A stretch of DNA of 64,000 nt from Nonlabens ulvanivorans (GTDB lineage Bacteria > Bacteroidota > Bacteroidia > Flavobacteriales > Flavobacteriaceae): positions 62,001 through 126,000 of the forward strand of contig NZ_BBMK01000001.1 in assembly GCF_000755285.1 (NCBI RefSeq), given 5' to 3'. Shown piece after piece: positions 1 through 13,245 of this stretch; position 1 is the first letter of the stretch; each line of letters opens with the position of its first letter. The notes beneath the pieces were generated by a model. It had not been told where the DNA came from. It made no database searches and saw nothing but the letters and a program-made list of their open reading frames with translations. Position numbers and translations under genes: made by a program.

Positions 1-1025
1 AAGATGACAATACCACAACCTATCACTGGTTTGTAAAAAATCCTATTAATAATTATGGGGGGGTCAATATTAACATAGGTGACTATGTTAATTTTAATGA
101 AGTATATCAAGGAGAAAAAGGTGATCTAGATATGAATTACTTTGTGCTGCGTGACAACCTAGAGAAAGCTCAAGAACAATTTAAAGATGCCACAAGAATG
201 ATGGAAGCTTTTGAACACTGGTTCGGGCCATATCCATTTTATGAAGACAGCTTTAAATTGGTTGAAGTTCCTTATCTGGGCATGGAACATCAAAGTTCTG
301 TGACGTACGGGAATCGATTTAGAAATGGTTATCTGGGAAGAGATTTATCTGGCACAGGTTGGGGAATGAAATTTGATTTTATTATTATACATGAATCTGG
401 GCATGAGTGGTTTGCAAATAATATTACCAATAAAGATATCGCAGACATGTGGATTCATGAGAGCTTTACCGCTTATAGCGAAAGTTTATTCCTGGATTTT
501 CACTATGGTACTACAGCAGCAAATGAATATGTGATAGGTACCAGACGCAGTATTCGAAATGACAGACCATTGATAGGTGAATATGACGTGAACCACGAAG
601 GATCTGGCGACATGTATTACAAAGGTGCAAACATGATACATACCTTAAGAATGCTGGTGAATGATAAAGATCAATGGCGCAAAATATTGCGAGACATGAA
701 TAAAGTTTTCTATCACAGTACTGTCTCCACTCAAGATATTGAAGATTTTTTATCTCAATCTATAGGTCATGATTTAGAAGGCTTTTTTAATCAGTATTTA
801 AGAAATACCAAAATCCCTAAACTGGTTCTCAAAAAGAAAAAAAACAAATTAAGTTATCACTGGGAAAATATAGTAGATAACTTTAAGTTACCCATACGCA
901 TTGTAATCGATGATGAAATAGTACTTATAAATCCAACAGCGTCAAAACAAGTTTTAAAACTACCTTCAGATAAAGCTGTGATTCAAACAGATCCTGCCTA
1001 CTATGTAGAATATAAGCTTAACTAA
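1..1025 (+). CDS. M1 family metallopeptidase, 5' end outside the window
   Basis: C-terminal part of a zinc aminopeptidase of the M1 (gluzincin) family, probably exported. The frame is open from base 3, so the start lies upstream of the window. The zinc site is visible as HESGH (bases about 390-405) followed 18 residues later by the third ligand in WIHESF. The upstream residues YHWFVKNPINNY and NIGDYVNF match the family's N-terminal domain edge. A G7 run at 57-63 encodes an extra glycine (NYGGVNI) where NYGVNI would be expected. The 3' end overlaps the convergent TIGR01777 gene by 8 bases. Family assignment is firm; the substrate is unknown. Confidence 0.9.
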   Translation, partial: DDNTTTYHWFVKNPINNYGGVNINIGDYVNFNEVYQGEKGDLDMNYFVLRDNLEKAQEQFKDATRMMEAFEHWFGPYPFYEDSFKLVEVPYLGMEHQSSVTYGNRFRNGYLGRDLSGTGWGMKFDFIIIHESGHEWFANNITNKDIADMWIHESFTAYSESLFLDFHYGTTAANEYVIGTRRSIRNDRPLIGEYDVNHEGSGDMYYKGANMIHTLRMLVNDKDQWRKILRDMNKVFYHSTVSTQDIEDFLSQSIGHDLEGFFNQYLRNTKIPKLVLKKKKNKLSYHWENIVDNFKLPIRIVIDDEIVLINPTASKQVLKLPSDKAVIQTDPAYYVEYKLN

Positions 1026-1905
1026 GATGCTTTAAACAAAGACCTATATTATCATAGTTAAACTGAAACCCAGCATCCAGCAAGCGTTGTGGATACACAT
1101 TACGACTTTTTAAAAGCAGTTCTGTTTCAGTTCCTATAATAGATGTTCCTAATTCTAACAGCCATACGGGTTGCGAGATACCGAATGGTATATTCATAGA
1201 TTTACGCAATTGCCTCATAAAATCTGCATTTGTTTCTGGCTTAGGTGCCGTGATGTTTACTGTACCTTCCAAATCAGATTGAATTAAGAATTCAATAGAC
1301 CTACAAAAATCATTGATATGAATCCAGCTTACAAACTGATTACCACGACCGTTTTTACCACCTATTCCTACTCTAGTAATAGCTTTCATTTTAGGCAATG
1401 CACCACCATCATTTCCTAAAACGATTGAAGTTCTCAATGCTACTTTGCGCACACTTTCAATAGTCGTTGAAAAGAATTCCTTTTCCCATGCCTTGCCTAT
1501 TCCCATAGAGAAATCGTCACCTATGACACCATTTTCTTTAGTATTCATTTGCGTTTCAGAATGGATGTAGATGGTTGCGGTACTTGCGTTTAAAAACACC
1601 TTTGGCTTGTTGATAGCATTGGCCATCGCTAAATTCAGAACTCTAGTGCTATCGATGCGCGAACTTAATATTGCTTTTTTATTAGCATGAGTATACCTGC
1701 AGTCTACTGACTTACCTGCGAGGTTGATGAGGACATCTGCATTTTCTAAATGGACAGTCCAATCTCCTAAATCTTTACCATTCCAGTAAGTGGTTTGAGA
1801 ATCACGCTTTCGCGAAAGCGTAATCACCTCATCTCCTCTATTCTCAAAATATTGCGACAGTGAAATACCTAGAAATCCTGTGCCACCTGCGATAATTATT
1901 TTCAT
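1018..1905 (-). CDS. TIGR01777 family NAD(P)-binding epimerase-like protein
   Basis: Short-chain dehydrogenase/epimerase-like protein of about 295 residues. The start at 1905 is chosen because MKIIIAGGTGFLG begins exactly at the Rossmann fold (GGTGFLG nucleotide-binding loop); the open frame extends 23 residues further upstream but would run into the preceding gene. The C-terminal DUF1731 part is present (PVWLLELG, LLKSRNVYPQRLLDAGF). It is the last gene of a minus-strand set with a DCC-type thioredoxin-like membrane protein and a small membrane protein under a GbsR-type regulator. The reaction is not known for this family. A copy of the 16-bp palindrome (1805-1820) lies inside and encodes LSRKR. 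Confidence 0.85.
   Translation of the reverse strand: MKIIIAGGTGFLGISLSQYFENRGDEVITLSRKRDSQTTYWNGKDLGDWTVHLENADVLINLAGKSVDCRYTHANKKAILSSRIDSTRVLNLAMANAINKPKVFLNASTATIYIHSETQMNTKENGVIGDDFSMGIGKAWEKEFFSTTIESVRKVALRTSIVLGNDGGALPKMKAITRVGIGGKNGRGNQFVSWIHINDFCRSIEFLIQSDLEGTVNITAPKPETNADFMRQLRKSMNIPFGISQPVWLLELGTSIIGTETELLLKSRNVYPQRLLDAGFQFNYDNIGLCLKHLS
1805..1820. repeat. 16-bp palindrome, copy 1
   Basis: Exact CGCTTTCGCGAAAGCG inside the TIGR01777 gene, read there as LSRKR. Flanking bases A and T extend it to 18 bp. Confidence 0.95.
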
Positions 1906-2738: not shown

Positions 2739-3116
2739 CTATTTAGTGATTAGTGATAATTGTTCTTCATTCTCTATATAACATCTGTAAGAGATGTACA
2801 TAAAGTAGATACCTAAAAGACCTGAGGTTATCATCCCTAGAATAAATACCATTTCTTCCATATTAGAACTCAAGTGCACATAGTCTTTACCTACTAAGAA
2901 CAAAGTACCTAATGTTAATGCGGTAAGCAATAAGTATGATTTATTCATCCATTGTATAGAACTAGATGTTCTTTTATATTGATTAAGCAACCACAGACTA
3001 CATACAACCTGAACCGCTCCAAGTGGTATCATAAATAACAGACCGAAAAAAGGAATGAGAAATAAAAGTAAATTGAGGATTATTAAGACCAGATTTACTC
3101 GATACATTGTTTTCAT
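2739..3116 (-). CDS. small integral membrane protein, first gene of GbsR-linked operon
   Basis: 125 residues with about four hydrophobic segments (around residues 7-27, 31-45, 60-76 and 88-110) and a polar C-terminus. I do not recognise a named family. Its start lies 16 bases downstream, on the minus strand, of a 26-base inverted repeat (3132-3157) that resembles the one in front of the regulator gene. It is therefore the first gene of the operon that the GbsR-type protein probably controls. Confidence 0.7.
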   Translation of the reverse strand: MKTMYRVNLVLIILNLLLFLIPFFGLLFMIPLGAVQVVCSLWLLNQYKRTSSSIQWMNKSYLLLTALTLGTLFLVGKDYVHLSSNMEEMVFILGMITSGLLGIYFMYISYRCYIENEEQLSLITK

Positions 3117-3131
3117 AATAGTGTAGTTTTT

Positions 3132-3157
3132 AAACTTTCAGAAATAACTGAAAGTTT
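3132..3157. promoter_or_regulatory. candidate GbsR/MarR operator O1 (inverted repeat)
   Basis: Perfect 10-base arms AAACTTTCAG and CTGAAAGTTT separated by 6 bases. It overlaps the last codons of the regulator gene and lies 16 bases before the start of the small membrane gene (3116). The outer 9 bases of each arm are identical to those of the second site at 3705-3730. I infer it is the operator for the downstream three-gene operon. Confidence 0.7.
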
Positions 3158-3680
3158 TATTGAAATAAAAAAGGCTAAGAAATCGCTTGATTAATTTTTT
3201 CATGTAATTATTGTTATTGATTTTAGTCATTAAATTAGTTAGGTTTTCCATTTGGTGTACAAAATCTGCAAGATCTGCAAGTAGTGTTTGGAAATGAGCT
3301 ACTTCTTTTTCATCACCTTCAATTTTAGTATTGATGAGTTCGTTGAGCAATCTACGTACTGGTTCTAGCTCGCGTCTTTTGCGTTCTTCCATAATGTTTT
3401 GAGCGATGGAATGTACATCGTGTAAAGCAACAAAATACTCTTTACGTTCTCCGAGCACCGTTTCCTTGCGCACCAGTCTCCAGTTAATAAGCTCACGTAC
3501 GTTTGTGTTCACATTACCTCTAGAGAGTTGTACTTGCTCCATGATCTCGTCAGTACTTAATCCATCTTGAGAAGAAAGTAGTAACGCATGTATTTGCGCC
3601 ATAGACTTTGAGATTCCCCAAGAACTACCTAGTGAGCCCCAAGCCTGTATAAATTTATATTTTCCTTCTTCTAATTTCAT
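3138..3680 (-). CDS. GbsR/MarR family transcriptional regulator
   Basis: Winged-helix regulator of about 180 residues. The start at 3680 (MKLEEGKYKF) is preferred over the open frame's earlier ATG at 3695, because a perfect promoter (3685-3714) would begin transcription near or after 3695. The DNA-binding part follows: LSTDEIMEQVQLSRGNVNTNVRELINWRLV (helix-turn-helix and wing), then a long helical C-terminus. Two near-identical palindromes flank the gene, one over its own promoter and one in front of the next operon. This points to autorepression and control of the three genes downstream. The inducer is unknown; the redox-type CxxC protein in the operon suggests an envelope or thiol signal (inference). 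Confidence 0.85.
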   Translation of the reverse strand: MKLEEGKYKFIQAWGSLGSSWGISKSMAQIHALLLSSQDGLSTDEIMEQVQLSRGNVNTNVRELINWRLVRKETVLGERKEYFVALHDVHSIAQNIMEERKRRELEPVRRLLNELINTKIEGDEKEVAHFQTLLADLADFVHQMENLTNLMTKINNNNYMKKLIKRFLSLFYFNKTFSYF

Positions 3681-3684
3681 ACGA

Positions 3685-3714
3685 CAAATATACATTAATA
3701 TTTTAAACTTTCAA
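3685..3714 (-). promoter_or_regulatory. Bacteroidota-type promoter of the GbsR/MarR gene
   Basis: On the minus strand a -33 TTG (3714-3712) is followed after exactly 19 bases by a -7 TATATTTG (3692-3685), 4 bases before the ATG at 3680. The TTG lies inside the palindromic operator O2, so bound repressor would cover the -33 element. Confidence 0.75.
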
Positions 3715-3730
3715 TAATTATTGAAAGTTT
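3705..3730. promoter_or_regulatory. candidate GbsR/MarR operator O2 (26-bp perfect palindrome)
   Basis: A fully self-complementary 26-base site with outer arms AAACTTTCA and TGAAAGTTT. It contains the -33 TTG of the regulator promoter and lies 25 bases before the regulator start. It also lies 41 bases before the divergent lipoprotein gene at 3771, so both directions could be controlled. Confidence 0.75.
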
Positions 3731-3770
3731 AGTTTGGGTAATTTATTTAAAGAGTTTTCGTTATTTTTAT

Positions 3771-4441
3771 ATGATGCGTATACTGTCCATTCTTTTTGTT
3801 TTAATCCTAGGTATATCATGTACTGAAAAGGTAGAGGAATCGAAGCCACTTATTGAGATATATCAACTTAATAAGCGAATAGCTAGTTATGAAGGAGAAG
3901 CTGTTATATTCACGGATGAGATGACTAAAATGGATCCACAATTTACAGAACGTTACAAAGACGTATTAAGGACAACCGAAGATGGAAATTGGACACCTAA
4001 TGGCGCTTTTAAAGCTATTCAAAGTGATTTACAACAAACTCCGTTAATTAGTGATGATGAAATAATAGGATTTGATTTTACAACAAATCAATTATTATTA
4101 AATAAAAATGCTTGTTCTTATTTTGGAATGACAAAAAAATCAAAGATTATCATCAAGATTCACAATTAGTACTAACCATTGATAAAAAACCATTTCTTAG
4201 TTTTTATAAGCAAAGTACAATGACTAGATGGAAAGTAGGTAATGCCTTCTTAGTTTTAGAATGTGATCTTATTTTTGCAGGCGAAGATGTTATGGAAAAT
4301 CCGAAACTTTCAGATAAAAATACTCTGCGTTTTTTTAAAGAATCAAATGGCATAGATTGGTTTGATAAAAAAACAAATCTCAAACAAGACACCGCATTTT
4401 ACAATGCTTTTAAAAGAGCAGGAAAGATTATAGCTGAGTAG
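3771..4441 (+). CDS. lipoprotein of unknown function (frameshifted in this sequence)
   Basis: Signal peptide with lipobox ILGISC, so an exported lipoprotein of about 220 residues. I do not recognise the family. The frame breaks at the A7 run 4133-4139; restoring A8 joins NACSYFGMTKK to IKDYHQDSQLVLTIDKKPFL and reads through to the stop at 4441. One intact gene with a lost A is more likely than two genes. It is divergent from the GbsR gene and 12 bases upstream of the HD hydrolase gene. Confidence 0.65.
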
Positions 4442-5112: not shown

Positions 5113-5850
5113 CTAATTCTGACTACTAGACTTTTGTAGCTCGCTGGTCTGGCACCATTTTAAATAATACTCATAGATCTCATCTATGGTAGCGCCATTA
5201 CGCTTCTTCCAATAAATAGTGATATAAAACCATTGCAGTTTATAAACTCCTATTTCTTCATAACGCCTGGCACTGGTTTTTAACCATTTAGGAATCACAT
5301 AATAGCTTCCGTGATCGTATAATCTATGGATAAGATCATAGTCTTCATAAATGGGAATATCTGTGTTATAGCCACCTATTTTTTTATACAACTCTTTAGT
5401 AATATACTGTGATTGATCACCACCACGACTGGCACGCCATGAAAATCTAGTAAACCATCCTATAATGATTAACCACCAGTTCCAACTCATAAATCGCATA
5501 CGGAAACAGCCTGCTGGATTTCCCTGAGAAACAGCTTGAATGATATACTTATCATAATCTTGTGGTGGAAAAGAATCTGCATGAAGAAAATAAAGGATTT
5601 CACCATTTGCGATTTGCGATCCTGCATGCATTTGTGATCCACGACCTTTTGAGGCTGTATGAAACTGTAGAGATAGTGATGGATACGCTTTCGCGAAAGC
5701 GGAAACCTGACCATCTGTATTGTCTATACTATGACCATCTACCACAATGATTTCTATTGTATTGATATCACTTGATTTATCAACCAAATGCGTCAGTAAC
5801 TGATAAATAGAATGCTCTTCATTAAGAACAGGTATAATAATGCTAATCAT
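5113..5850 (-). CDS. TIGR04283 family (arsenosugar-associated) glycosyltransferase
   Basis: GT2-type glycosyltransferase of 245 residues: IIPVLNEE at the N-terminus, IIVVDGHSIDNT as the nucleotide-sugar loop, FLHADSFPP as the metal-binding D-x-D equivalent, and GGDQSQYI further on. Family TIGR04283 is found with radical SAM and arsenosugar genes. The gene is the last of four minus-strand genes (TIGR04282, purine nucleoside phosphorylase, DUF547, this one) that belong to that neighbourhood. A palindrome copy at 5686-5701 encodes AFAKA. The sugar donor and acceptor are not shown by the sequence. Confidence 0.85.
   Translation of the reverse strand: MISIIIPVLNEEHSIYQLLTHLVDKSSDINTIEIIVVDGHSIDNTDGQVSAFAKAYPSLSLQFHTASKGRGSQMHAGSQIANGEILYFLHADSFPPQDYDKYIIQAVSQGNPAGCFRMRFMSWNWWLIIIGWFTRFSWRASRGGDQSQYITKELYKKIGGYNTDIPIYEDYDLIHRLYDHGSYYVIPKWLKTSARRYEEIGVYKLQWFYITIYWKKRNGATIDEIYEYYLKWCQTSELQKSSSQN
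5686..5701. repeat. 16-bp palindrome, copy 2
   Basis: Exact copy inside the TIGR04283 gene, read as AFAKA. Confidence 0.95.
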
Positions 5851-7661: not shown

Positions 7662-8272
7662 TGATATGTTTTAAAAAGTGTTGAAATGCTGGAACGTCCT
7701 TGATATCTTCATAAAAATCGACATCATTACGTGGCTCGAGCAACGTGTAATTTAAGTTTTTTAAATCTTTTAAAGTTTGCGCCTGTACTGTTTCTGTTCC
7801 CCCATTCTTTATTTAAAAAGACATTTGAAGGCACTTGTTTTTTAAATCCTAACAAATAATAACCACCATCTATAGCAGGTCCCATGACCGCATCATGACT
7901 ATCTAACAATTCAAACGCTTTATCTAGGTCTTGAGTTGTAAGATCATACATGTCACTGCCTATAATAACAACCTTATCATGTGTCTTAAATGCTGTGTCA
8001 AAAGCATGCTGCATGCGCACACCTAGATCTTCACCTTGCTGAACATGTTTTTGGTAAATCTCATTATCCCAATCATCATTTTGATGGAGCTTTTCAGAAT
8101 ACCATACTTGCGGTTGCGCATTTACAGATTTTGTAATTTCACGGGTATGACTTAAAAGAAATTTATAAATCTCAAAAGCTGCCTCATCACCTACGGTAGC
8201 CGCTAGACGACGTTTCCCTTTTCCTAATTCTGGATTACGAGTAAATATGATTAAAGCGTTTGTATTAGACAT
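7654..8272 (-). CDS. TIGR04282 family (arsenosugar-associated) glycosyltransferase (frameshifted in this sequence)
   Basis: About 205 residues once a +1 shift is corrected. The N-terminus ALIIFTRNPELGKGKRRLA is the typical nucleotidyl/glycosyltransferase (CofC-like) loop; VVIIGSDMYDL and GPAIDGGYYLLG follow. At the C5 run 7799-7803 (G5 in the gene) the frame breaks after NKEWG; with G4 it continues as NKEWGTETVQAQTLKDL and ends in NA at 7654, overlapping the phosphorylase start. First gene of the four-gene arsenosugar-type cluster. The corrected reading is well supported by the continued family-like sequence. Confidence 0.85.
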
Positions 8273-13202: not shown

Positions 13203-13245
13203 TGGAGAAGCGTTACTCTTTTAAAGAGTTTCGCCTTTTCTTTTT
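13203..13245. terminator. bidirectional hairpin terminator
   Basis: Stem GGAGAAGCG...TTTCGCCTTTTC with an inner palindrome ACTCTTTTAAAGAGT, followed by a T run. It lies between the convergent lipoprotein and HAD genes and can serve both. Confidence 0.6.

Follow-up and report, generated by a model that had tools for sequence, protein, structure and literature searches.

The gbsR locus and its genes

The window, a stretch of 64,000 nucleotides from Nonlabens ulvanivorans, carries on its minus strand a gene for a GbsR/MarR-type regulator (gbsR) followed by genes for a small hydrophobic protein, a DCC1-like protein and a TIGR01777 family oxidoreductase, with one palindrome (operator A) over the gbsR promoter and a second (operator B) in the gap between gbsR and its neighbors (Table 1). 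A preliminary description of this DNA had placed two matching 26-bp sites at 3132 to 3157 and 3705 to 3730; both are there, operator B reading AAACTTTCAGAAATAACTGAAAGTTT and the 26-bp core of operator A reading AAACTTTCAATAATTATTGAAAGTTT. The second site had been described as holding the -33 TTG of a TTG-N19 promoter, and on the minus strand TTG (3714 to 3712) is indeed followed by 19 nt, TATATTTG (3692 to 3685), TCGT and the ATG at 3680, with 24 bases between this 26-bp core and the gbsR start codon. The first site, said to lie just before the start of the next gene, ends 15 bases before that gene's ATG (3116).

Table 1. Features of the gbsR locus, in window coordinates.
Feature	Position	Strand	Remarks
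TIGR01777 family oxidoreductase (YfcH-like)	1018..1905	-	274.5 bits, cut-off 207.35
DCC1-like protein (D-x-x-C-x-x-C), long helices	1937..2731	-	3' end shifted by one-base deletion near 1979
Small hydrophobic protein, membrane by eye	2739..3116	-	No Pfam or NCBIfam match; similarity cluster of 10 loci
Operator B	3132..3157	.	Palindrome in the gap between gbsR and the partner operon; 65/106 protein-fetched loci
Terminator-like hairpin remnant and T-tract TTTTTTATTT	3163..3189	-	Directly before operator B; stem one base short compared with relatives
gbsR, GbsR/MarR-type regulator	3175..3680	-	3' end inferred from relatives; ORF as read runs to 3138
-7 element TATATTTG	3685..3692	-	19 nt after TTG
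-33 TTG element	3712..3714	-	In right arm of operator A; TTG there in 83/92 A and 29/65 B
Operator A	3704..3731	.	Palindromic over all 28 bp; overlaps the gbsR promoter; 92/110 protein-fetched gbsR loci

The pattern AAACTTTCA-N6-12-TGAAAGTTT has two copies in the window and none in 100 dinucleotide shuffles, and with a shorter pattern (8-base arms, 16 specified bases, spacer of 6 to 10) operators A and B are the sole copies in the genome of 3,091,813 bases, against 0 for a reversed-pattern control. The twin palindromes are real and far above chance. Allowing up to three mismatches, the genome has 42 matches, of which 2 are exact, 1 differs at two letters and 39 differ at three; the reversed control has 61, and at this tolerance no further regulon sites in this genome stand above the control.

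The regulator was first described as a GbsR/MarR protein, and its best solved relative by sequence is Mj223 (1ku9; phmmer E 2.6e-12). Among the fold matches listed for a monomer model (pLDDT 86.8, pTM 0.74), 1ku9 has a Z of 16.6, with an rmsd of 3.7 over 148 residues, and 5jbr is level with it at Z 16.4. The protein has a GbsR-type winged-helix fold related to Mj223, and the long C-terminal helices of the model are compatible with a homodimer. It scored 22 bits against MarR_2 (PF12802; cut-off 27) and 48.6 bits against the CudC/GbsR choline regulator model NF047500 (equivalog cut-off 218), and among 51 aligned gbsR sequences including that of the window, S53, L64, W67 and G77-E-R-K80 are invariant while R54-G-N56, N60, R62, K72 and E81 are conserved in at least 90%. 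On these results, GbsR-type is a fair name for the regulator and choline regulator is not, the NF047500 score lying far under its cut-off.

The three genes downstream had been read as encoding a small membrane protein, a CxxC thioredoxin-like membrane protein and a TIGR01777 protein. The last of these stands well over its family cut-off, the thioredoxin-like label is better refined to DCC1-like, and both membrane placements were made by eye. The DCC1-like protein scored 23 bits against PF04134 in the window and 27.3 in the relative at locus L050, under the gathering cut-off of 27.8, yet its D10, C13 and C16 are invariant in 19 of 19 sequences, and its second half consists of long predicted helices that suggest, by eye, a place in the membrane. 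Elsewhere in the window, a glycosyltransferase (5113 to 5850, minus strand) lies over the cut-off of TIGR04283 (arsenosugar biosynthesis; 207.9 vs 182 bits).

Some features of the locus as read are best understood through its close relatives. Relative to G016 (L247), L003 and L004, one base is deleted from the window near 1979 (in the DCC1-like gene) and another near 3186 (in gbsR), and one is inserted near 7800; the window is also one A short near 4140 compared with L004 alone, and one base short near 13210 and 14827 compared with L247, the sole relative compared there. Most of these differences lie in doublets or runs and several of them interrupt open reading frames, which makes small indel errors in the assembly probable. 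In the relatives gbsR stops before the palindrome, the equivalent stop here being the TAG at 3177 to 3175, and the extension of the gbsR reading frame through site B is probably a one-base sequence error. Read against these sequences, the gbsR read-through, the altered C-terminus of the DCC1-like protein and the split reading frame at 3771 to 4441 are best taken as sequence errors or young frameshifts.

Conservation of the palindrome with gbsR and a partner operon

Lack of the palindrome at orthologous loci had been named as grounds for refuting the prediction, and the palindrome is clearly conserved there. We assembled a trusted set of 110 gbsR loci, free of redundancy and retrieved with the protein as the sole query, 106 of them long enough for site B, and scored a site where at least 13 of the 16 specified letters matched between -125 and -20 of the start codon (site A) or between +440 and +650 (site B). 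Site A was present in 92/110 loci and site B in 65/106, with all 65 B loci also carrying A; at the threshold of 13 of 16, 18/110 gbsR loci had no site A and 41/106 no site B. A wider set of 128 loci, 18 of them fetched solely via the motif, held 110 A sites and 79 B sites; when the half-sites were shuffled, none of 100 such palindromes was found at more than 5 loci in the A region or more than 4 in the B region. At L018, a 15-of-16 palindrome lies 407 bp upstream of gbsR, away from the usual position.

The association holds at each taxonomic level that we sampled up to the phylum. Across 23 genomes of the genus, the exact 24-mer pattern occurred in 11, at 19 sites, every one of which flanks or overlaps a gbsR match by coordinates; gbsR itself was found at E ≤1.4e-77 in 14 of these genomes, only weak, paralogue-like matches were found in G018 and G020, and three Nonlabens genomes with gbsR (G005, G007 and G017) had no exact palindrome, their sites carrying one or two mismatches. 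In the family of the window (f1), the exact pattern was present in 20/24 genomes with gbsR and in 0/17 without (p=4.7e-8, from counts made by eye from tables and with shared ancestry ignored in the p-value). An even sample of 395 genomes from the phylum had the exact pattern in 39, against 1 genome for the reversed control, and it adjoined gbsR in 29 of the 39 and lay elsewhere in 10 (adjacency judged by eye). Among distant gbsR loci, 15 of the 15 examined had no site of 13 or more.

Gene families around gbsR were clustered over 75 loci (L003 to L077), 65 of which appear in the gbsR cluster itself, a shortfall due at least partly to a greedy choice of reading frames that kept an opposite-strand frame in some loci. 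The recurrent partners were TIGR01777 (43 loci), the DCC1-like protein (28), a small membrane-like protein (26), a family that we take to be START-like and whose representative has no Pfam match (20), DUF2071 (12), the small-protein family of the window (10) and a methyltransferase (8); one neighbor, at L045, scored 27.3 bits against Polyketide_cyc2, just under the cut-off of 27.4. Site B tracks these partners. Counting a partner anywhere in the fetched locus, and over 71 genome-contig loci long enough to judge with 3 short ones excluded, B was present in 39/51 loci with at least one partner family vs 1/20 without (p=2.5e-8, ancestry ignored), and when only same-strand partners within 4.5 kb downstream were counted the figures were 39/50 and 1/21. 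The lone B locus without partners (L071) looks spurious by eye. Twelve of the 51 partner loci had no B at the standard threshold, and 5 of 50 with same-strand partners had none at a threshold of 12. Site A, judged over 74 loci, was present in 48/51 with partners and in 10/23 without. Where gbsR without partners lies behind genes that we presume to be gcvT-like (e.g., L021, L022 and L031), A and B are both absent, while five loci of this same layout (L034, L043, L046, L049 and L056) have an A-region site of 13 to 14.

Gain and loss of the operon follow gbsR within the genus as well, gbsR and an intact TIGR01777 orthologue being both present in 14 and both missing in 9 of the 23 genomes. In G004 (L203), the last 99 codons of the TIGR01777 gene are left between the same HD and M1 neighbors; genes for gbsR, the small protein and the DCC1-like protein were not found there, nor was any site of 13 or more in the 6-kb stretch, and in this genome regulator, sites and operon were lost together. 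From its protein families, we would guess that the operon answers envelope, lipid or redox stress; on a regulon tied to light or carotenoids, the open-licence literature gave nothing usable for the partner genes. In Aquimarina, a gene of an ECF sigma factor cluster follows the operon at L057, L061 and L064 to L067, and a small anti-sigma-like gene follows the ECF gene at L057, L061 and L064 to L066 (L067 has none, as far as fetched).

The palindrome also occurs away from gbsR. In family f38, 9 of 19 rhodopsin loci (L229, L230, L231, L233, L234, L238, L239, L242 and L244) carry it (at least 13 of 16) 87 to 277 bp upstream of the PF01036 match, and none of 60,683 other positions in the f38 rhodopsin loci has one; 3 of the 9 palindrome-bearing genomes were first found via the motif, and a GbsR-type regulator may control rhodopsin in this family. 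In four genomes of two families (L181 to L184), it stands at or directly upstream of a gene for a chorismate-binding enzyme, called by Pfam in L181, L182 and L184 and by eye in L183, next to a gene that we take to be menD-like, and a link to menaquinone synthesis is possible. At L188 and L189 (family f36), it lies between bactofilin-like and aldehyde-dehydrogenase-like genes, with a Pfam match for one gene in each.

The promoter at operator A and the tract at operator B

The σA promoters of one Flavobacterium carry a TAnnTTTG box, according to the available part of a published analysis (PMC9723704), and this box distinguishes the two sites sharply. At protein-fetched loci it was found at an offset of 34 to 40 in 72/92 A sites and 0/65 B sites, and in the wider set the full TTG-N17-21-TAnnTTTG arrangement accompanied 82/110 A sites, against no more than 2 in 20 shuffles. 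Directly before TGAAAG, 101/110 A sites of the wider set have T and 50/79 B sites have C, as if A but not B paid a promoter constraint. A general σ70-type promoter scan recovered the gbsR promoter (10 of 12) but, with 14 sites vs 15.5 expected from shuffles, adds nothing. That site A sits on a σA-type promoter, where a bound regulator is predicted to repress initiation by covering the -33 element, is well supported by these sequence comparisons.

Site B has a different context. An A- or T-tract occurs in the 34 nt before the palindrome at 77/79 B sites vs 12/46 gbsR 3' ends without B, several of those 12 being weaker, sub-threshold B-like sites (e.g., L017, L023, L077 and L093), and the last long A/T run ends 5 to 10 nt before the B 24-mer. 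By a rule of our own applied to the wider set, a hairpin with a T-run precedes 41/79 B sites vs 10/110 A sites. The hairpin of the window itself, with its stem one base short of that in relatives, was missed both by a terminator scan and by our rule (L001), and in Flavobacterium-like loci the tract is mostly AAAAAAATTT, with a hairpin in one (L136). Beyond +650 there are 8 further sites. At six of them (L033, L060, L156, L157, L162 and L166), tract, palindrome and start codon follow one another as at B, judged by eye, an order not found at the other two, L030 and L131.

A σA promoter at B was considered and rejected: scans from -80 to +50 did no better than shuffles, TAnnTTTG at the A-type offset was absent from all 79 B sites of the wider set, the window's B likewise has no TTG/TAnnTTTG promoter, and TTG-N17-21-TAnnTTTG was found neither at any of the 79 nor in the 250 nt before them. 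Because B has a tract, often with a hairpin, and no recognizable σA promoter, control of elongation or another type of promoter is suggested.

A probable local regulon, its alternatives and known systems

Conservation of the sites, their position, the promoter overlap at A, the coupling of B to the operon and a core shared with a footprinted relative come from the sequence comparison, and from them we infer a dimer, its binding, repression, ligand control and a step in elongation. We hold it highly probable on this basis that the locus encodes a local regulon in which a GbsR-type repressor is autoregulated at A and controls the neighboring operon at B; autorepression with control of that operon had been proposed at the outset, and the presence of A with gbsR, of B with partner genes and of the same core in the known repressor CydE (below) agrees with it. 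A GbsR dimer would read TTTCA-N8-TGAAA; on operator A (3704 to 3731) it would cover the -33 element and repress gbsR, on operator B (3132 to 3157), between the gbsR stop and the next start, it would shut off the genes for the small, DCC1-like and TIGR01777 proteins, and a ligand would free both operators together. What releases the repressor may be a way into the role of the TIGR01777 protein, a family for which we know of no established role.

At B, the dimer would halt RNA polymerase that has set out from the gbsR promoter, in or beside the terminator-like or A/T tract. We regard this elongation block as the likeliest mechanism, though somewhat short of an even chance; Flavobacterium-like loci, with mostly an A-tract and no terminator hairpin, speak against it. 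More doubtful is a generalized form, in which a hairpin with T-tract or an A7TTT run, a gap of 5 to 10 nt, the GbsR palindrome and the start codon make up a composite element, a repressor-gated terminator at Bacteroidota gene junctions, where the bound regulator would stall polymerase over the tract while the second copy of the palindrome sets the regulator's own level. The main alternative, which we consider a serious though not an evenly matched bet, is that B is an ordinary operator of a promoter other than TTG/TAnnTTTG, with the tract serving as the gbsR terminator or as an upstream promoter element. The hairpin with T-run before 41/79 B sites, compared with 10/110 A sites, would in that case insulate gbsR from the operon, the same layout before later genes in six loci would point to separate units for each gene group, and F. 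psychrophilum has non-σA promoter motifs, as the available part of PMC9723704 describes. Against an ordinary promoter stand TAnnTTTG at the expected place in 0/79 B sites, 5-of-6 box matches paired with TTG in 8/79 (shuffles: mean 6.0, maximum 9) and sequence logos that show by eye no common -7-like box from B to the start codon.

The remaining alternatives concern what B is rather than how polymerase meets it. Looping of the DNA between A and B, with B an auxiliary operator of the gbsR promoter, would fit the 65/65 B loci that also carry A and their spacing of 561 to 683 bp, but the spacing is set by gene length, B tracks the partner operon and not gbsR alone, and the 79 A-B pairs show no 10.5-bp phasing (vector 0.12); since the spacing has no helical phase, it gives no support for looping, which we consider improbable. 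The arms of B are able to pair and B lies between two same-strand genes, which would suit an RNA hairpin (a terminator, attenuator or stability element) and not a protein-binding site, but pairing is not kept outside the core (positions 3 and 22 complementary in 37/79 and 9 and 16 in 30/79, G-T allowed), the TTTCA/TGAAA letters are nearly invariant, as reading of the DNA would predict, and identical letters stand at A, which lies ahead of the point where the transcript is predicted to begin, making an RNA element very unlikely. It is less likely still, and the least probable of these readings, that the palindromes serve another regulator and lie near gbsR incidentally: the sites of family f38 before rhodopsin genes and before chorismate-binding enzyme genes, which are not at gbsR, would suit that view, but 19/19 exact sites in the genus and 29/39 motif genomes of the phylum sample place the palindrome at gbsR, and CydE, itself GbsR-type, footprints the same core.

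The comparisons that follow draw on the available parts of the reports cited. CydE of Alishewanella sp. WH16-1 is a GbsR-type repressor of cytochrome bd genes whose footprinted site 1, TATTTCAGAAATTTCTGAAAGTTCA, contains TTTCA-N8-TGAAAGTT, the same core as the operators of the window, with C at the base before TGAAAG as in most B sites; like the prediction for GbsR here, CydE neighbors the operon it represses (PMC6096048). The two differ in that CydE belongs to a gammaproteobacterium and has cytochrome bd as its target, whereas the window comes from another phylum and has another operon, and the second footprinted site of CydE, GGGATGCGCATATGCAAAT, has no match to the motif and lies in the same promoter region, not beyond the regulator gene. 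A gbsR relative in Alteromonas (L075; 29% identity in alignment) has AACTTTCAGTAATTTCTGAAACTT at -39, and the two genes after it read by eye like cytochrome bd subunits. CioR of Chromobacterium violaceum, also GbsR-type, directly represses the operon that its own gene heads, as predicted here, but targets cioAB; in vitro, zinc and iron disrupt the binding of CioR, for which the available part gives no binding sequence (PMC11837568). Bacillus GbsR, with its aromatic inducer cage, OpcR and OpuAR are of the same family by fold, having been modelled on Mj223, and differ in controlling choline and compatible-solute genes (PMC6207618).

Precedents for the elongation reading of B come from other regulator families. 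In the Chlamydia trpRBA operon, YtgR binds an operator in the gap between regulator and operon genes, and once bound it favors termination of transcription begun at the upstream promoter, although YtgR is not the adjacent regulator (TrpR) and the gap is 348 bp long with a mapped secondary promoter (PMC6504234); by analogy, this case may serve as a precedent for B. At the roadblocks of LacI, CcpA, CodY, PurR and GalR, a repressor downstream of the start blocks elongation, as proposed for B, but in the available part of that account these sites are not described with a paired terminator or A/T tract, whereas B has a tract at a fixed distance (PMC10310618). If B stops elongation, a single small regulator would use one palindrome to govern both the initiation and the elongation of transcription at neighboring genes.

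This operator core is already known for a GbsR-type regulator. The regulon in Bacteroidota and its arrangement of two sites and a tract are, as far as we have seen, new, no description of either having been found among the matches listed from the open-licence literature. For the Bacteroidetes GbsR group, gene neighborhoods gave no consistent picture in a 2018 survey, in the part available (PMC6207618); the locus supplies one for that group, with a putative operator, a target operon that recurs and an arrangement of two sites.
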